The notes below the pieces were generated by a model. That model saw only the letters and a program-made list of their open reading frames with translations, was not told where the DNA came from and made no database searches. From Dehalococcoidales bacterium (GTDB lineage: Bacteria > Chloroflexota > Dehalococcoidia > Dehalococcoidales > UBA3254): 6,762 nucleotides of DNA. Numbering within the stretch: position 1 is the first letter of the stretch; each line of letters begins with the position of its first letter. Positions 671 to 6,762 of the stretch are shown in pieces. Both the position numbers and the translations under genes were made by a program. The stretch is taken from positions 1 through 6,762 of the forward strand of contig JAQULX010000154.1 of assembly GCA_028718465.1 (NCBI GenBank). Direction: 5' to 3'.

Positions 671-1615
671 ATGATTGGATTACTCATTTTTGGCATCATT
701 GTCATCGTCGTTGGTTTATACCTGAGGCAGACAAACAAGGGAGCCAAGGGAGATGGCAGAATCCGATTTGGTGGAACAATTGCCAGCATAGGCGGAATCG
801 TCATTATCGTCGTTAGCATTATTGTTGGCTCACTCACGGCAGTACCCGCTGGCCATCGCGGGGTAGTCATACGGTTTAATGCGGTGACTGGCTCAATCCT
901 GGATGAAGGTCTTCAGACAAAGGTCCCGTTCCTGGATTCGGTAGTAATGATGGATGTTCGGACCGACAAATATGAAACCGGTGCGGCCTCGGCATCCCGC
1001 GACCTTCAGGATGTTAAAACTACCATTGCCCTCAACTGGCGTTTGGACCCGACCAGAACAGCCGAGATTTACCGGACATTGGGGACCGAGTATATGAACA
1101 AAATTGCTGCTCCGGCCGTTCAGGAGGTCATCAAGCAGGTCACTGCAAAATACAACGCGGAAGACCTTATTCTGAAACGCGAGGTTGTCAGAAATGAAAT
1201 CGCCGAGAACCTGTCAATTCGACTTATGGAGCGTGGTATCATAACCGAGGCGGTATCGATAACAGAGTTCCAATTCAGTGCCACCTTCGTTGCTGCTATC
1301 GAAGCCAAAGTAGCGGCAGAGCAGGCGGTATGGGAGGCTAAGAACAAATTGGAGCGGGTCAAGGTTGAGGCTGAGCAGGCAGAAGCTGCAGCTATTGGGG
1401 AAGCAGACGCTCGAATAGCCAAAGCAAACGGTGAAGCCGAGTATATTCGCATTGTTACCGATGCCCAGGTCGCCGCTAATAATGCTGTGGCGGAATCTCT
1501 CTCCCCCGAAGTGTTGCAGTATATTCTTCTCGACCGGCTCGGTGAAGACATCAAACTCATGGTGATACCTTCGAGTCAAGGTCTTGACATGGTGCTTCCA
1601 CAGATAACGCCATAA
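671..1615 (+). CDS. SPFH/band 7 (prohibitin-like) membrane protein
   Basis: A 314-residue SPFH/prohibitin-family protein. Two hydrophobic segments (about residues 3-18 and 36-57) anchor it in the membrane. The band 7 domain follows from about 58 to 215, beginning with the typical valine/glycine-rich entry and a GLQTKVPFLDSV stretch equivalent to the family's 'GL.FKIPF.' signature. Residues about 205-268 are rich in Ala, Glu and Lys and should form the oligomerising coiled coil, and the tail (277-314) is hydrophobic as in prohibitins. Relatives build large membrane-bound rings or cages that organise microdomains and hold AAA proteases such as FtsH. The ATG at 671 is chosen because AAGGAGG (659-665) sits 5 bases upstream. 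The J-domain gene begins 30 bp after its stop, so the two are probably co-transcribed. The partner and exact role are not visible. Confidence 0.9.
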   Translation: MIGLLIFGIIVIVVGLYLRQTNKGAKGDGRIRFGGTIASIGGIVIIVVSIIVGSLTAVPAGHRGVVIRFNAVTGSILDEGLQTKVPFLDSVVMMDVRTDKYETGAASASRDLQDVKTTIALNWRLDPTRTAEIYRTLGTEYMNKIAAPAVQEVIKQVTAKYNAEDLILKREVVRNEIAENLSIRLMERGIITEAVSITEFQFSATFVAAIEAKVAAEQAVWEAKNKLERVKVEAEQAEAAAIGEADARIAKANGEAEYIRIVTDAQVAANNAVAESLSPEVLQYILLDRLGEDIKLMVIPSSQGLDMVLPQITP

Positions 1616-1645
1616 GAACCAAAAAGTAGACTCTGCAGATTAACG

Positions 1646-2083
1646 ATGGTAACAGAGCTTGACTATTATTGTATCCTCCAGGTGCACCACAAGGCTGAGA
1701 AAGAGGTAATTGATGCCGCTTATCGCAGGCTGGCAGCAAAGTATCACCCTGATGTAAGTCGGGTACCAGATGCTTCGGAGAGAATGAAGCAGATAAATAC
1801 TGCTTACGAAGTGCTATCTGATCCAGCCAGGAGAGCAGCATATGACGCCTCCTTGGGTATGTCGGCTTCACCGGACGCACTACCTTATACTACGGTTAGG
1901 TCGAGACACCTTGCCAAACCGTGGCGGGTTTTGCTGATAATGGCTGGTATAATACTGATTGCTTTCGTGGCGTTCCGATTAGGGTTTGGCCTTTTGTTGA
2001 GATCGTCCAGACTAGTGGCAGTGCTCGTGGTGATTTTTATTGCTATTTGGTTGTTCCTTACCCTGGTAAAGCAAAAACGTTGA
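1646..2083 (+). CDS. Membrane-anchored J-domain (DnaJ-like) co-chaperone
   Basis: A 145-residue protein with an N-terminal J domain (about residues 5-70): it opens with DYYCILQV, carries the essential HPD tripeptide at 34-36, and ends with the usual [14 protein letters not shown] helix. There is no Gly/Phe-rich linker, zinc-finger or substrate-binding domain, so this is not DnaJ itself but a small class III J-protein. After a basic linker come two predicted transmembrane helices (about 94-118 and 122-141) and a basic tail, so it should recruit and stimulate a DnaK-type Hsp70 at the inner face of the membrane. It lies 30 bp downstream of the SPFH gene on the same strand, which suggests joint work on membrane protein quality control (inference). 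No clear Shine-Dalgarno precedes the ATG, although the J domain begins so close to it that the start is probably right. Confidence 0.87.
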
Positions 2084-2111
2084 ACGAGGAGTTATGTAGA
2101 CGATATTAGTA

Positions 2112-2123
2112 TTCACATGTGAA
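2112..2123. promoter_or_regulatory. 12-bp perfect palindrome upstream of the zincin remnant
   Basis: TTCACATGTGAA is a perfect inverted repeat 10 bp before the start at 2133. It is not followed by a T run, so it is not an intrinsic terminator. It could be an operator half-site pair or chance. No matching copy was noticed elsewhere in the window. Confidence 0.2.
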
Positions 2124-2132
2124 CAACTAACT

Positions 2133-2507
2133 ATGGCTAGAAAGAATAAGTTATCTCGTGAAGAGTTTAAACGTCTAGTTGAAAAAGCTCTGGTAACTCT
2201 GCCGGAGGAATTTCAGTGCTATCTGGATAATTTAGCCGTTGTGATAGAGGATGAACCACCAGACGTCACTAAGATATCAAAGGAAGCCCTCGCTAAGGCG
2301 GTCAACATCTTTGATGACATAAAGCATAGGGAACTTCGACCAGTTAATGAAATTCAACAGGATATTGCACGAGCGGAAATTGACACAAGACTAGGCATAG
2401 TAGTATTAGGATGCACTCCTGAGTTGATGGCACCAGATGGTCCGCTTGCGCTATTGAGGCAGAAGTTGGCGTTGGAGCCTTCTATTACTGGCAGTAAGGT
2501 GAGTTAG
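2133..2507 (+). CDS. Broken zincin_1 metallopeptidase-family protein, chimeric C-terminus
   Basis: The 124-residue product starts like the zincin_1 family of small predicted metallopeptidases: SREEFKRLVEKAL, then LPEEF and LDNLAVVIEDEPPD (residues 8-44). Family members then continue with an LGLYEG-type segment and end near residue 110-120 in an HExxH zinc-binding motif. None of this is present here. From about residue 45 the sequence changes to something I do not recognise, ending with LGIVVLGCTPEL and LLRQKLALEPSITGSK. The gene therefore cannot encode an active zincin and looks like a host gene cut by a recombination event and fused to foreign sequence. No Shine-Dalgarno is visible before the ATG. 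It may be untranslated. The second half might be the tail of another enzyme; I make no assignment. Confidence 0.6.
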   Translation: MARKNKLSREEFKRLVEKALVTLPEEFQCYLDNLAVVIEDEPPDVTKISKEALAKAVNIFDDIKHRELRPVNEIQQDIARAEIDTRLGIVVLGCTPELMAPDGPLALLRQKLALEPSITGSKVS

Positions 2508-2579: not shown

Positions 2580-2840
2580 TGACCTGCTCCCCGGAAACGA
2601 TACCAACTATAATATCGTAAAGGGGGAAAGGAAATGGTCAGAAAAGGGTATACAGCGGAACAAATCATCACCAAGCTACGCGAGGCTGAAGTCCTGCTCA
2701 GCCAGGGCAACACCATTAGTATTGTTTGCAAGAAGATTGGAGTCAGTGACTACACTTATTACCGCTGGAGAAAAGAATATGGTGGGATGCAGGTGGAACA
2801 GGCCAAGAGGCTGAAAGAATTAGAGGTCGAGAAATTCCCG
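2580..2840 (+). mobile_element. Remnant of an IS3-family insertion sequence (left end)
   Basis: TGACCTGCTCCCCGG (2580-2594) looks like an IS3-family left terminal inverted repeat, which usually begins TGA.CTG.CCCC. It stands about 40 bp upstream of the orfA start, the normal distance. The element breaks off inside orfA near 2825-2840, where serine recombinase sequence takes over in another frame. orfB (the DDE transposase) and the right end are missing, so it cannot move by itself. Confidence 0.6.
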
Positions 2841-2843
2841 TAG
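2634..2843 (+). pseudogene. Truncated IS3-family transposase OrfA
   Basis: A 69-residue fragment of the small OrfA protein of an IS3-family element. It has the typical start (MVRKGYTAEQIITKLREAEV), a helix-turn-helix that would bind the terminal repeats (about residues 8-47) and the family hallmark YYRWRKEYGG at 42-51. Full OrfA proteins continue after KRLKELE with a leucine-zipper region and run to about 85-100 residues, with a frameshift window into orfB. Here the similarity ends at about residue 64 and a stop follows at 2841-2843. A strong AAGGGGGAAAGGA-type ribosome binding site lies just upstream, so the peptide may still be made. With no orfB next to it, it cannot act as a transposase. 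Confidence 0.75.
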
Positions 2844-3525
2844 TCTGGCTAACTGCAAAGCCTCAGGAACCTCCATCAGCTGCAAGATACCGGATGGTCA
2901 GTTGGACCAGATAATTAAAGCGATTGAGCTGCATCCCCAGTGGTTAGAAGAGGTCTTAGCCATCGTTAACCTGAAAGATGAAGTGGACAGAGTGAAAAAG
3001 CAAAGAGCCGTAGTCCAGGAAAGGTTAAGAAGAGTGGGTAAAATCTATATTGATAGACTGATCTCCGATGAGGAATATAACCATCAGCTCAGAAAGCTGA
3101 ATGATGAACTGGCCTCTCTGGTAGTACCGGGTATTAGTGCCGCTGAAGAGGCTGGAAAATTGATTAGCCATATCCCAGAACTGTGGGCTGGAGCCAATAT
3201 TGAGGAAAAAAGAAACTTACTTCTAACCATGCTGGAGGCGGTCTATTTTGACGTTAAACAAACTAAGTCCATTGTCGCTATCAAGACCAAGCCGCCTTTC
3301 GTCCCTATATTTCAAGTGGCAGTAACCCGTGAAGGTTCAGGTATCCATATAATCAAAAACGAGCCCTCAAGCAAAGAGTCAAGGAACTCGTCAGTGTTCA
3401 TGGTGGAGACGGGGGAGGCACTCTCTCCGTCATCACTCAGCCTCGAAAATATCCTCCTTGAGAGGCGGGCGATGGGGATAACGTTCATTACAGAATGCTT
3501 CCAGAAAGCTGACAACACCAGGTAA
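2824..3525 (+). pseudogene. C-terminal fragment of a large serine recombinase
   Basis: The frame is open from 2824, just after a stop at 2821-2823. The first initiation codon I can place is TTG at 2902 without a Shine-Dalgarno, giving at most 207 residues. The sequence matches the C-terminal part of large serine recombinases: a remnant of the zinc ribbon (two cysteines, at 2854-2856 and 2881-2883), the helix LDQIIKAIELHPQW, then a charged coiled coil (about residues 22-75 from the TTG) with the IDRLISDEEYN segment usual in these enzymes, and a terminal region with KTKPPFVPIFQVAVTREGSG. The N-terminal resolvase domain with the catalytic serine and the recombinase domain are absent, so it is inactive. 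It abuts the IS3 fragment directly, so a deletion probably joined the two. Confidence 0.7.
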
Positions 3526-3566: not shown

Positions 3567-3932
3567 ATGACCTGGCAAGTTGAGTTTTTTATTGATTCTG
3601 ACGGCAATGAGCCAGTGAAGGATTTCATTCTGGCTCAATCCAAAGACACCATGGCCGAGATCATCCATGTTTTTAAACTCTTAAGAGAGTTTAACATCGG
3701 GCTCGGAATGCCCTACGTTAAAAAGATCGATAAGTCAGGTCTAAGAGAACTCAGGATAAAGCACAGTTCCAATATTTACCGCATCTTCTTTTTTGCCTAT
3801 ATCGGCCAGAAATTTATTCTCCTGCACGCCATTATGAAAAAACAGGATACCACCCCGGAAGGAGATAAAAGGTTAGCCCTGGAAAGGATGCGGGAATACA
3901 TGTCTCGGAACCCTGGTTCTAATGCTGCTTGA
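3567..3932 (+). CDS. higB: HigB/Gp49-like toxin of a type II toxin-antitoxin pair (RelE fold)
   Basis: A 121-residue protein of the phage-derived Gp49-like/HigB family (RelE superfamily). It has the family opening (WQVEFFIDSDGNEPVKDFI, 3-21), the central helix pair and LGMPYVKKI (46-54), the core SGLRELRIKHSSNIYRIFFF (57-76) and the LLHAIMKKQDTTP strand-turn (85-97), followed by a helix with arginines and a terminal tyrosine. Known relatives are ribosome-dependent mRNA endonucleases. The Arg/Lys/His residues expected for RNA cleavage are present in the 60-95 stretch. The toxin comes first and the XRE antitoxin second, the HigBA order. The start fits the family N-terminus exactly although no proper Shine-Dalgarno precedes it, which agrees with the leaderless promoter. 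It appears complete. Confidence 0.87.
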   Translation: MTWQVEFFIDSDGNEPVKDFILAQSKDTMAEIIHVFKLLREFNIGLGMPYVKKIDKSGLRELRIKHSSNIYRIFFFAYIGQKFILLHAIMKKQDTTPEGDKRLALERMREYMSRNPGSNAA

Positions 3933-4015: not shown

Positions 4016-4330
4016 ATGAACAAGAAGAAACCTACTAATTTTGAAGAATTTGAAGGCGAATTACTTAAGGACCCGGAAATCCGTAAGGAATATGAGGAAC
4101 TTAAACCCAAATATGAAATGATCCAGAGTTTGATAAAACGCAGGAATCAGCTCCGCATGAGTCAATCTCAGCTTGCCAGGACTGTCGGTACGAAACAACC
4201 GGCAATATCCAGGCTGGAGCGCGGTGAATTCAATAACGTCACACTGAGCACTTTAATAAAAGTTGCTCATGCCCTTGACCTGGACCTGGATATTTCTTTA
4301 AAAGCTAAAAGGACAAAAGTGATAGCCTAG
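4016..4330 (+). CDS. higA: HigA-like XRE-family antitoxin
   Basis: A 104-residue protein: an N-terminal acidic, lysine-rich helical region (1-37) followed by a Cro/C1-type helix-turn-helix domain (about 38-92). The domain reads MSQSQLARTVGTKQPAISRLERGEFNNVTLSTLIKVAHALDLDLDI, with the usual SQ.QLA..., QP.ISRLERG and L..L.K.A.AL.L.L signatures. The role is to neutralise the upstream HigB-like toxin and repress the locus through the DNA-binding domain. A Shine-Dalgarno GAGAGGG (4002-4008) lies 7 bases before the ATG, in contrast to the toxin, so the antitoxin is likely translated more efficiently. The gap of 83 bp is longer than the usual overlap or few bases and holds palindromes 3941-3958 and 3970-3979, which suggests separate antitoxin expression. 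It is convergent with the PLD gene. Confidence 0.88.
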   Translation: MNKKKPTNFEEFEGELLKDPEIRKEYEELKPKYEMIQSLIKRRNQLRMSQSQLARTVGTKQPAISRLERGEFNNVTLSTLIKVAHALDLDLDISLKAKRTKVIA

Positions 4331-4438: not shown

Positions 4439-5992
4439 TTAACTTGAGAAAAATGTTTTGAAGTAATAATTCCATCTTTCCTCGCAAACTTCCGGGTCAA
4501 AAATAACGTCTGTCCCCTCATGACGTAATTTATGTTTTCCATCAGCTTTACCGGAAAAAGACAAAAGATTAAAGCTTCCGCCGAAAGTAAAACGATTATC
4601 GCATATTAAACGTTTTTCGTGGTTCCAGCCAATATCTTTAAATACTAATTGATTTGGAAATTCCTTCTGGATTTTTAGTAAGGTCGCCTCTGCTTGTTTC
4701 CAATATGTACTATCTCTCTGTTCTTTTCCTCGCCGAGTATCGCGATCAAAACCATACCCGATCCAGATTTTTACACCTCTTCGAAGAGCATTTCGTATTT
4801 CCATAGCCATAGTGTCATTGACAATTTCCGAGGAGATCCATCCCGATAACATTAATAACCGTTCTTTTGCGGTTTTTATCGCTTCCCATAATTTTTCACG
4901 TATTTCGGGAGTCCATAGAAACACCACTTTTCTTGCATTTCTCATTTCTTCAGCTTGCTCAAGCTTTTTCCTTGATTCATCCAATTCCATCTTCAAATCA
5001 TCAATTTGTTTACGTTGAATATCTTTAGTATCAGATTTATTAAGGAAATCCAACTGTTCTTGTTTATCTTTAACTTCTTGCTTGACTGAAACAACTTTTG
5101 CTGCCAGGTCTTCGGCATCATCAAATCGCCCTAATTTTTGTAGTACCTTCTCTGGTACTTGTTCTTTAATACGATTCTCTATTGACTTTTCCTTAGGTGA
5201 CATCAAGTTCGATAATAACTCAGGACCTCTTGCCTTTATAAAAGCATATTCATAATCATTCTTTAACTGGCCCCCAATAATAAATGAAATGAGCCGTTCT
5301 CTTTGGTCGTCAATTGTTTCGTATTCTACCATCACCCCTGGTTCATATAATGTCCGAACATTTTTTAAAACGCTTTTCACAGCAATAACAGTCTGGCTGT
5401 TGCCCGACTTTGAGTGATGAACTCTCTTTATTACTGTCTCTAGTTTTTCAACATCAATCTCATCTGGATAAGGTGCCCGATTTGGTATTGCCCGAACCAA
5501 ATCCAAGCCAAAATCTTGAGCTTCTATTGGCCTTAAATATTGAGACCGTGCGAAACCACCCAAATCAACTGGTTGTCTTAACAAACCATGGAAAATAACA
5601 TTGGGGACAGTTATTTCTTGCATAAAAGCTTGTTTAAGATTAGTTGATATCTCTTTCCCTTTATGGGTTAAGACACACTGTGCATTATTAGAACCGTTAT
5701 CGCTTAGGACCTCTATAACCTCTTGTCTCCGAAGGTCAACTAAACATGAACGTACAACTTCTTGATCAAGACCTAGGATGTCTGAAAGAACTGACAAAGA
5801 AGTAAGTCCCTCGGCCATCAACTTTATTACGAACTCATGGATAGGAGGAATATCTCGTGATTCCACGGCTAGGATCCGTAGGTTCATTGAGTAAACTGCG
5901 ATAGCTACTCCTCGATAAGCAACGAAGCGATACCCTGGTCTTTCGGCAAACCTACTTGCAATCGCATCAACATCGAATATTGAAGGGTTCAT
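4439..5992 (-). CDS. Winged-helix/coiled-coil/phospholipase D nuclease, candidate Mokosh MkoB-like
   Basis: A 517-residue protein in three visible parts. Residues about 50-116 form a winged-helix-like fold (LTSLSVLSDILGLDQEVVRSCLVDLRRQEVIEV). Residues about 117-292 are unassigned. Residues about 293-353 are a highly charged coiled coil. A PLD-like domain takes up 354-517: an entry with LLMLSGWIS and ALRRGVKIWIGYGF, then the catalytic motif H458-x-K460-x4-D465, followed by GGSFN at 471-475 and a glutamate at 492. Only one HKD motif is present, as in Nuc and MitoPLD/Zucchini, which dimerise to build the active site; the coiled coil could aid this. The likely activity is nucleic-acid cleavage. 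AGGAGG (minus strand, 6006 to 6001) lies 8 bases upstream and overlaps the stop of the helicase gene, so the two are coupled. Helicase plus PLD nuclease is the gene content of Mokosh defence; DISARM DrmC is an alternative but is usually much shorter. Confidence 0.75.
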   Translation of the reverse strand: MNPSIFDVDAIASRFAERPGYRFVAYRGVAIAVYSMNLRILAVESRDIPPIHEFVIKLMAEGLTSLSVLSDILGLDQEVVRSCLVDLRRQEVIEVLSDNGSNNAQCVLTHKGKEISTNLKQAFMQEITVPNVIFHGLLRQPVDLGGFARSQYLRPIEAQDFGLDLVRAIPNRAPYPDEIDVEKLETVIKRVHHSKSGNSQTVIAVKSVLKNVRTLYEPGVMVEYETIDDQRERLISFIIGGQLKNDYEYAFIKARGPELLSNLMSPKEKSIENRIKEQVPEKVLQKLGRFDDAEDLAAKVVSVKQEVKDKQEQLDFLNKSDTKDIQRKQIDDLKMELDESRKKLEQAEEMRNARKVVFLWTPEIREKLWEAIKTAKERLLMLSGWISSEIVNDTMAMEIRNALRRGVKIWIGYGFDRDTRRGKEQRDSTYWKQAEATLLKIQKEFPNQLVFKDIGWNHEKRLICDNRFTFGGSFNLLSFSGKADGKHKLRHEGTDVIFDPEVCEERWNYYFKTFFSS

Positions 5993-6000
5993 TCCTTCGT

Positions 6001-6007
6001 CCTCCTA
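6001..6007 (-). promoter_or_regulatory. Shine-Dalgarno of the PLD gene overlapping the helicase stop codon
   Basis: On the minus strand the helicase stop TAG (6007 to 6005) runs straight into AGGAGG (6006 to 6001), 8 bases before the PLD gene ATG at 5992. Ribosomes ending the helicase finish on the next gene's ribosome binding site, an arrangement that normally couples translation and fixes the ratio of the two products. Confidence 0.7.
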
Positions 6008-6762
6008 ATTTTTTAATTCCTCGAAATAGCAATGGTCTGGTCTTTGTTTTACATGGTTAAGTACTTTAAGTAAATGCTCTGAATTATCGGCTCTCGTTAC
6101 AAAACGATCGTCACCAACGATATACAAGAGTTCACGGGCGCGAGAAATTGCAACGTTTACTCGTTCCAATTCTTTTAAGAATCCCACGTTGCTTTCCTGG
6201 TTTGAACGTGTCAGCGAGAATACTACAATATCGGCCTCCCTCCCTTGCACTTGATCAATAGTTAAGCATTCAATTTTTAGAATTTTTATGTCGCGAACAA
6301 TTTGATTTATTCTACTTTTTAAAAGTCTTAACTGCGCATCATAACCACTCAAAATTAGTACTTTTTTCTCGTCACTGACTCTTTTCCTTACTAATTTATT
6401 ATCAATACTACTGATTATGTTACATATTCTTGATGCTTCTTCTGAGTTCGTCCGGCTGTGCCCAGCTACCTGTTCAAATCTTTTATCTAATTTACTAGTC
6501 GATAACCAATTAATCGATTTACCGGTACATGAACAGAGAACCGGATCAATATTAGTCCGGCCTCCTGTTAATTCATCTTCATAAAAGCAATGGCTTATTA
6601 ACTCTCTAATTGGGGCGACCATTCTATATTGCTCTGTTAATTTAACCTTATTTTCAATTGGTAAAAGTCGCTGAAATCGCTGGAACATCGACTCCTTAGC
6701 TTCTGGAGAACCGATTTCAAAACGCTCTTGTAATTCAGGTTTTGAAAGAATTTCTTCTTGAA
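6005..6762 (-). CDS. Superfamily 1 DNA2/NAM7/UPF1-like helicase, C-terminal part (5' end outside window), candidate Mokosh MkoA-like
   Basis: The frame is open from the right edge to the TAG at 6005-6007, giving 251 visible residues of the second RecA-like domain of a UPF1-type superfamily 1 helicase (COG1112/AAA_12 type). The methionine at 6688 is internal: upstream codons still match the family, with a segment like SLFERL in front. Motif IV is LTEQYRM (6620-6640), motif V TIDQVQGREADIVVFSLTRS (6203-6262) and motif VI RVNVAISRAR followed by ELLYIVGD (6134-6163). These couple ATP hydrolysis to movement on RNA or single-stranded DNA. Walker A, Walker B and any N-terminal kinase or other domain lie outside the window. 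It is the first gene of a two-gene operon with the PLD nuclease, so a defence role is likely (inference). Base composition is AT-rich like its partner. Confidence 0.85.
   Translation of the reverse strand, partial: QEEILSKPELQERFEIGSPEAKESMFQRFQRLLPIENKVKLTEQYRMVAPIRELISHCFYEDELTGGRTNIDPVLCSCTGKSINWLSTSKLDKRFEQVAGHSRTNSEEASRICNIISSIDNKLVRKRVSDEKKVLILSGYDAQLRLLKSRINQIVRDIKILKIECLTIDQVQGREADIVVFSLTRSNQESNVGFLKELERVNVAISRARELLYIVGDDRFVTRADNSEHLLKVLNHVKQRPDHCYFEELKN

Follow-up and report, generated by a model that had tools for sequence, protein, structure and literature searches.

Mokosh was reportedly described by Millman et al. in 2022. In the accessible part of one account (PMC11672841), type I has its helicase and its PLD protein encoded by two genes and carries an extra STK domain, and type II is a fusion. 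An initial annotation proposed a Mokosh-type operon in the window, by which we mean the whole stretch of 6,762 nucleotides that was analyzed. Both proteins of this pair, the helicase by its tail, match Mokosh models, and the two genes recur as neighbors elsewhere; the window very probably contains the 3' end of an mkoA-mkoB operon for Mokosh type I anti-phage defense. Judged from sequence comparison, the locus fits type I, with a kinase that would lie beyond the end of the contig.

The ORF list of the window contains two adjacent minus-strand ORFs, for a helicase C-terminus of 251 aa followed by an HKD phospholipase D protein of 517 aa (Table 1). They adjoin on the same strand as first annotated, with a gap of 12 bp (5993-6004). 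The minus-strand letters of the junction (...AATTAGGAGGACGAAGGAATG...) confirm that the TAG stop of the helicase gene overlaps the Shine-Dalgarno sequence AGGAGG, the end of which is 8 nt before the mkoB ATG. The pairing is not a matter of chance, since the helicase tail and the PLD protein independently pick MkoA (PDLC03920) and MkoB (PDLC03922) as their top PADLOC models and since the same pair recurs in other records. The GC content is 0.37-0.41 across the pair and at most 0.52 across the prohibitin gene. Because the flanks are also low in GC (0.38 at 1-600 and 0.38-0.43 around the toxin-antitoxin genes), the low GC content of the pair is a weak sign of transfer. Scans of the window found four promoters, compared to 8.1 expected by shuffling, and three terminators, compared to 1.9 expected; these counts are uninformative.

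Table 1 Coordinates of genes, motifs, and predicted domains in the window
Feature	Position	Strand	Evidence or remark
Prohibitin/SPFH gene (671-1615), DnaJ-domain protein, unassigned 124-aa ORF	671..2507	+	ORF list, Pfam
IS3-family orfA piece	2634..2843	+	HTH_Tnp_1 4.1e-15; transpos_IS3 1.1e-7, below its cut-off
207-aa ORF resembling the C-terminal part of a phage integrase family	2902..3525	+	Weak, phrog_95 1.1e-6
Gp49-family toxin-like gene	3567..3932	+	Pfam Gp49 1.2e-22; convergent with mkoB
HTH antitoxin-like gene	4016..4330	+	Pfam HTH_3 7.4e-13, HTH_37 9.1e-13; convergent with mkoB
mkoB, complete, 517 aa	4439..5992	-	PADLOC PDLC03922 MkoB 2.9e-46
Single PLD-superfamily lobe, mkoB residues 355-517	4442..4930	-	Predicted structure
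HKD motif HEKRLICD, HxK(x)4D, residues 458-465	4598..4621	-	Motif search
Two long helices (293-318, 324-352), coiled-coil-like linker, mkoB residues 293-352	4937..5116	-	Model secondary structure
MarR-like winged helix, mkoB residues 47-120	5633..5854	-	Predicted structure
Junction: mkoA TAG stop, AGGAGG overlapping it, mkoB ATG	5990..6007	-	12-bp gap
mkoA, 3' part only: last 251 aa of UPF1-like SF1 helicase	6005..6760	-	Frame open at contig end

The helicase fragment aligns with positions 862-1106 of the 1112-position MkoA profile PDLC03920 (1.5e-60), followed by a second MkoA model (PDLC03921, 1.2e-54) and MkoC (3.3e-18), and it contains Pfam domain AAA_12 (9.9e-44). The UPF1-like helicase of Mokosh type I is thus represented by its tail, with the first part of the motor off the contig, and the annotation of a helicase C-terminus beside a PLD gene holds. 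The fragment is 48.6% identical to the C-terminus of a complete 1161-aa kinase-helicase encoded on a viral contig (L044) and 49.6% identical to a homologue in a Desulfobacterales MAG (L002). The NCBIfam model for the PLuB helicase was considered and rejected (57 bits versus a cut-off of 999), and none of the papers listed in a combined literature query contained PLuB. By comparison with its relatives, the full window MkoA is expected to be a fusion of about 1150 aa between a Ser/Thr kinase and a UPF1-like SF1 helicase. All but its last 251 aa are read from those relatives; the contig ends before the putative kinase and the Walker motifs.

To find relatives of the pair, plasmid records were searched by tblastn with the window PLD protein, which yielded 17 records, 11 of these at a coverage of at least 80%. 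Ten of the 11 loci were opened (H1-H5 and H7-H11); H6, which has the scores of H5 and comes from another Tolypothrix strain, was omitted, as were six short matches (H12-H17) that count for or against nothing. At all ten loci, the gene directly upstream of mkoB on the same strand has a product of 1136-1184 aa that is annotated either as a Ser/Thr kinase or as an AAA protein, and the gaps range from -4 to +28 bp. For every MkoB relative scanned (7/7) and for the phage-borne one, PDLC03922 ranks first among the models, and PDLC03920 covers four of four complete MkoA proteins nearly end to end (L034, L038, L041, and L044). The HRD kinase motif occurs in all 11 complete MkoA proteins, as does a DEA[S/G] box, and ten have the Walker A sequence GPPGTGKT (GPPGTSKT in L040). 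The four that were scanned with Pfam (L034, L036, L038, and L041) all contain Pkinase. The DFG position reads DFG in eight of the 11, DYG in L040 and L041, and DFS in L044; since DFS replaces DFG in this relative from the same subclade as the window, it is not sure that the L044 kinase is active. In the Desulfobacterales MAG, a 645-aa helicase piece overlaps mkoB by 11 bp. Only 151 bases are present upstream of the mkoB relative in L001, in which a few residues, mostly the last ones, resemble the helicase tail. An apparent linkage of P0002 and P0145, each on a contig of length 9348, was rejected and treated as coincidence, because the kinase-helicase P0145 is only 40% identical to the window helicase while P0002 is 70% identical to the window MkoB.

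On the Nostoc plasmid pNPM2 (L039, 7001-12557), a Mokosh pair is located about 800 bp upstream of a CBASS-like gene set annotated as a DncV-like nucleotidyltransferase, an E2 protein, and a Mov34/MPN family protein.

A complete pair was also found in a scan of viral contigs (L044; MkoA of 1161 aa, gap of -4), with an MkoB 49% identical to that of the window. The 48.8-kb contig IMGVR_UViG_3300021604_000003 (1-16591 in L044 and 16500-32000 in L046) belongs to a temperate tailed phage, and it carries a complete Mokosh type I operon at 1586-6597 of L044. Phage gene content was assigned by PHROGs scans. The operon directly follows a tyrosine integrase gene and precedes genes for exonuclease VIII, Sak4, SSB, a helicase-like protein, and primase; terminase, portal, head protease, major tail, and tape-measure genes are located further on. 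Pfam searches of the L044 record for portal, TerL_ATPase, and capsid gave one weak result and two null results. Two further viral-contig scans, one based on the L044 MkoB and the other on an MkoB alignment of mainly cyanobacterial members, returned no copy beyond the L044 record, which is the only phage-borne case in the three scans, and the INPHARED phages had no match.

The MkoB family search recovered 46 proteins, counting the one in the window, and all 36 members of at least 450 aa, the window's included, have exactly one HKD motif. In a maximum-likelihood tree of 48 MkoB rows, the window protein groups with P0002-P0006 in a clade of six rows (support 100/100), which is nested in a group of 37 rows (100/100) that also includes L044 and L002. 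Outside this larger group fall P0046 and the plasmid forms from cyanobacteria, Arthrobacter, and Alphaproteobacteria. The tree has several long branches, whose joins may be false; one of them is P0043, which is basal in the 37-row group. Among the cyanobacterial plasmid members, those aligned over most of the query (H1-H6, H8, and H9) share 22% to 28% identity with the window MkoB. By sequence, it falls in a supported subclade apart from the plasmid forms, as a new divergent member of a known system. The 388-aa protein P0031, on a 586-kb contig, is 58% identical over 74% of the query and stops in the early part of the PLD lobe without reaching the HKD motif; it is possibly a decayed mkoB copy.

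The genome collections searched contain few close relatives. A genome-contig scan with two peptide patterns matched 78 stretches, two of which code for relatives (L001 and L002, each on a short contig). In a set of 297 genomes chosen around G001, the one strong match was G001 itself, with five others at E values of 5.5e-8 or worse. UPF1-like helicases and PLD enzymes also occur outside defense, which would allow the window genes to be a housekeeping pair for RNA or DNA processing. This is highly improbable given the matches to the MkoA and MkoB models, the carriage of the pair on plasmids and a phage, the CBASS-like genes beside the pNPM2 pair, and the small number of genomic relatives in the two-pattern scan and around G001.

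The Mokosh assignment of the second gene extends beyond its PLD lobe. Residues 26-446 of the window MkoB align with positions 5-384 of PDLC03922 in two stretches (157 bits for the whole protein), so that the MkoB-specific part is present, and the next models are MkoC (8.2e-11) and MkoB PDLC03923 (2.3e-9). A match to Pfam PLDc_2 (7.9e-8) and an intact HKD motif, followed by SFN at residues 473-475, agree with the annotation as an HKD phospholipase D protein. As a control, some PDLC03922 match was present in 128 of the 297 genomes, indicating that the PLD lobe alone is not specific, and outside G001, which encodes a true relative, no match exceeded 68.3 bits. Among the control matches listed, the better ones fell in the PLD region (profile positions ~257-608), and the winged-helix part drew a few weak matches of no more than 26 bits. 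The MkoB of the close relative L001/G001 aligns with positions 4-380 and then 530-601 of the profile, skipping the stretch between; the profile apparently includes two PLD lobes, compared to one in the window MkoB.

The structure model of MkoB (pLDDT 89.7) predicts a winged helix, a beta-rich middle region, long linker helices, and one single-HKD PLD lobe. Nuc, NucT, and BfiI are dimers in which two copies build one active site. Because the model has only one PLD lobe, MkoB probably dimerizes in the same manner, by analogy with these enzymes. A PDB sequence search with MkoB gave no useful match. Comparisons of the PLD lobe by fold gave the highest Z for SauUSI and also listed NgoAVII and BfiI; the top rows are within 1 Z, and the nucleases SauUSI, NucT, and Nuc tie with lipid enzymes. 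Overall, the lobe ties with restriction enzymes, lipid synthases, vaccinia F13, PLD1, PLD3/4, and FAM83 proteins; FAM83 is the top Foldseek family, and mouse Zucchini/PLD6 is at rank 17. Since these matches tie, nuclease activity does not follow from the fold alone, and the fold was rejected as evidence for nuclease over lipase activity. These ties speak neither for nor against the RNA targeting that the analogy with MOV10L1/PLD6 in the initial annotation would imply.

From the gene pair, the protein families, the conserved motifs, and the predicted fold, we infer an anti-phage activity in which the MkoA helicase would engage a nucleic-acid form made in phage infection (RNA, an R-loop, or ssDNA) and move along it. 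The MkoB dimer, gated by ATP hydrolysis and by the MkoA kinase domain, would then cut the bound nucleic acid. Taken alone, this mechanism has about an even chance of being correct. RNA as the substrate follows the literature (PMC11291487 and PMC10740426, in their accessible parts), and the available text of the former states that Mokosh degrades viral transcripts. The parts of the Mokosh literature that were searched yielded no experiment on the mechanism, and such work may still exist in print. Alternatively, the same operon may target DNA, with MkoB binding duplex via its winged helix and acting as a translocase-coupled restriction nuclease like SauUSI and NgoAVII, which would make the analogy with the piRNA pathway superficial. 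The leading Z of SauUSI, the presence of NgoAVII and BfiI among the fold matches, and the MarR-like character of residues 47-120 speak for a DNA target. However, lipid enzymes are among the tied top rows, and the fold therefore does not discriminate between substrates; the best PDB sequence match of the helicase tail is NAM7/UPF1 (1.9e-15), and viral transcripts are the stated target in PMC11291487. On balance, we consider a DNA target possible but rather unlikely.

The surroundings of the pair are consistent with the nearby toxin-antitoxin genes and mobile-element debris that had been noted. Pfam identifies a Gp49-family gene and an HTH_3/HTH_37 gene next to mkoB; the IS3-type orfA piece and the ORF with a weak match to an integrase C-terminus, for which no Pfam or NCBIfam match was found, are probably mobile-element remnants. 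A defense-island context, which had also been proposed, is weakly suggested by this single toxin-antitoxin pair and the remnants. The prohibitin-family gene shares 83% identity with Chloroflexi MAG proteins. Among the 120 matches listed, the ten with an organism name are all assigned to Chloroflexi, Chloroflexota, Dehalococcoidia, or Dehalococcoidales, so a Chloroflexota bacterium is the most likely host. The mobile-element remnants, together with the existence of truncated relatives such as P0031 (388 aa), raise the question of whether the pair is a decayed remnant of an operon that is broken outside the window. We regard such decay as quite improbable, since MkoB is full length with an intact HKD motif and a strong Shine-Dalgarno sequence, and the helicase frame stays open to the contig end.

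In the Alphaproteobacteria, MkoB relatives that do not have the HKD motif were found on a Microvirga plasmid (L040, 6980-9299) and an Aminobacter plasmid (L041, 6986-9167). In both, the kinase-helicase gene precedes mkoB and an overlapping PP2C gene follows it (PP2C was checked with Pfam in L041 and taken from the annotation in L040). From their gene content, these loci are possibly a signaling variant of Mokosh with a dead nuclease. The co-occurrence of PP2C with HKD loss hints that phosphorylation matters; however, two cases are few, and the DFS in L044 urges caution. A more inclusive reading is that the window belongs to a distinct Mokosh subclade that occurs in uncultured bacteria and in one or more temperate phages and whose kinase-helicase gates a homodimeric winged-helix PLD nuclease by reversible phosphorylation; in the alphaproteobacterial operons, where PP2C joins and HKD is lost, the output would come from the kinase/phosphatase pair instead of from cleavage. 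This combination is speculative and unlikely to hold in all its parts. The assignment to Mokosh type I adds a Chloroflexota-like host to the system, in a mostly metagenomic MkoB subclade, and the domain anatomy (a winged helix, long helices, one PLD lobe, a kinase, and at times a phosphatase) leads to a testable mechanism.

Compared to other described systems, the window MkoB differs from the single-HKD PLD nucleases SauUSI, NucT, Nuc, NgoAVII, BfiI, and Zucchini/PLD6 in its partner domains and shares 13% to 20% identity with them. DrmC of DISARM has a PLD lobe as well and was rejected as a candidate (NF038319, 16.4 bits versus a cut-off of 133). Similarity to Mokosh type II is seen in matches of the PLD part to MkoC positions 994-1113 (8.2e-11) and of the helicase to positions 769-959 (3.3e-18). 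However, MkoC is one fused protein, whereas the window genes are split by a stop, a ribosome-binding site, and a start; with two ORFs that score far better with MkoA and MkoB, a type II fusion was rejected. The window differs from known type I operons in having an MkoB with a single PLD lobe, compared to an apparent two in the PADLOC model, at 22% to 28% identity to the cyanobacterial plasmid members and in a tree group that excludes them. It resembles type I in its separate adjacent genes, a UPF1-like helicase and then a PLD protein, each with the corresponding PADLOC model on top, and in the kinase-helicase architecture that the complete relatives of the pair display.
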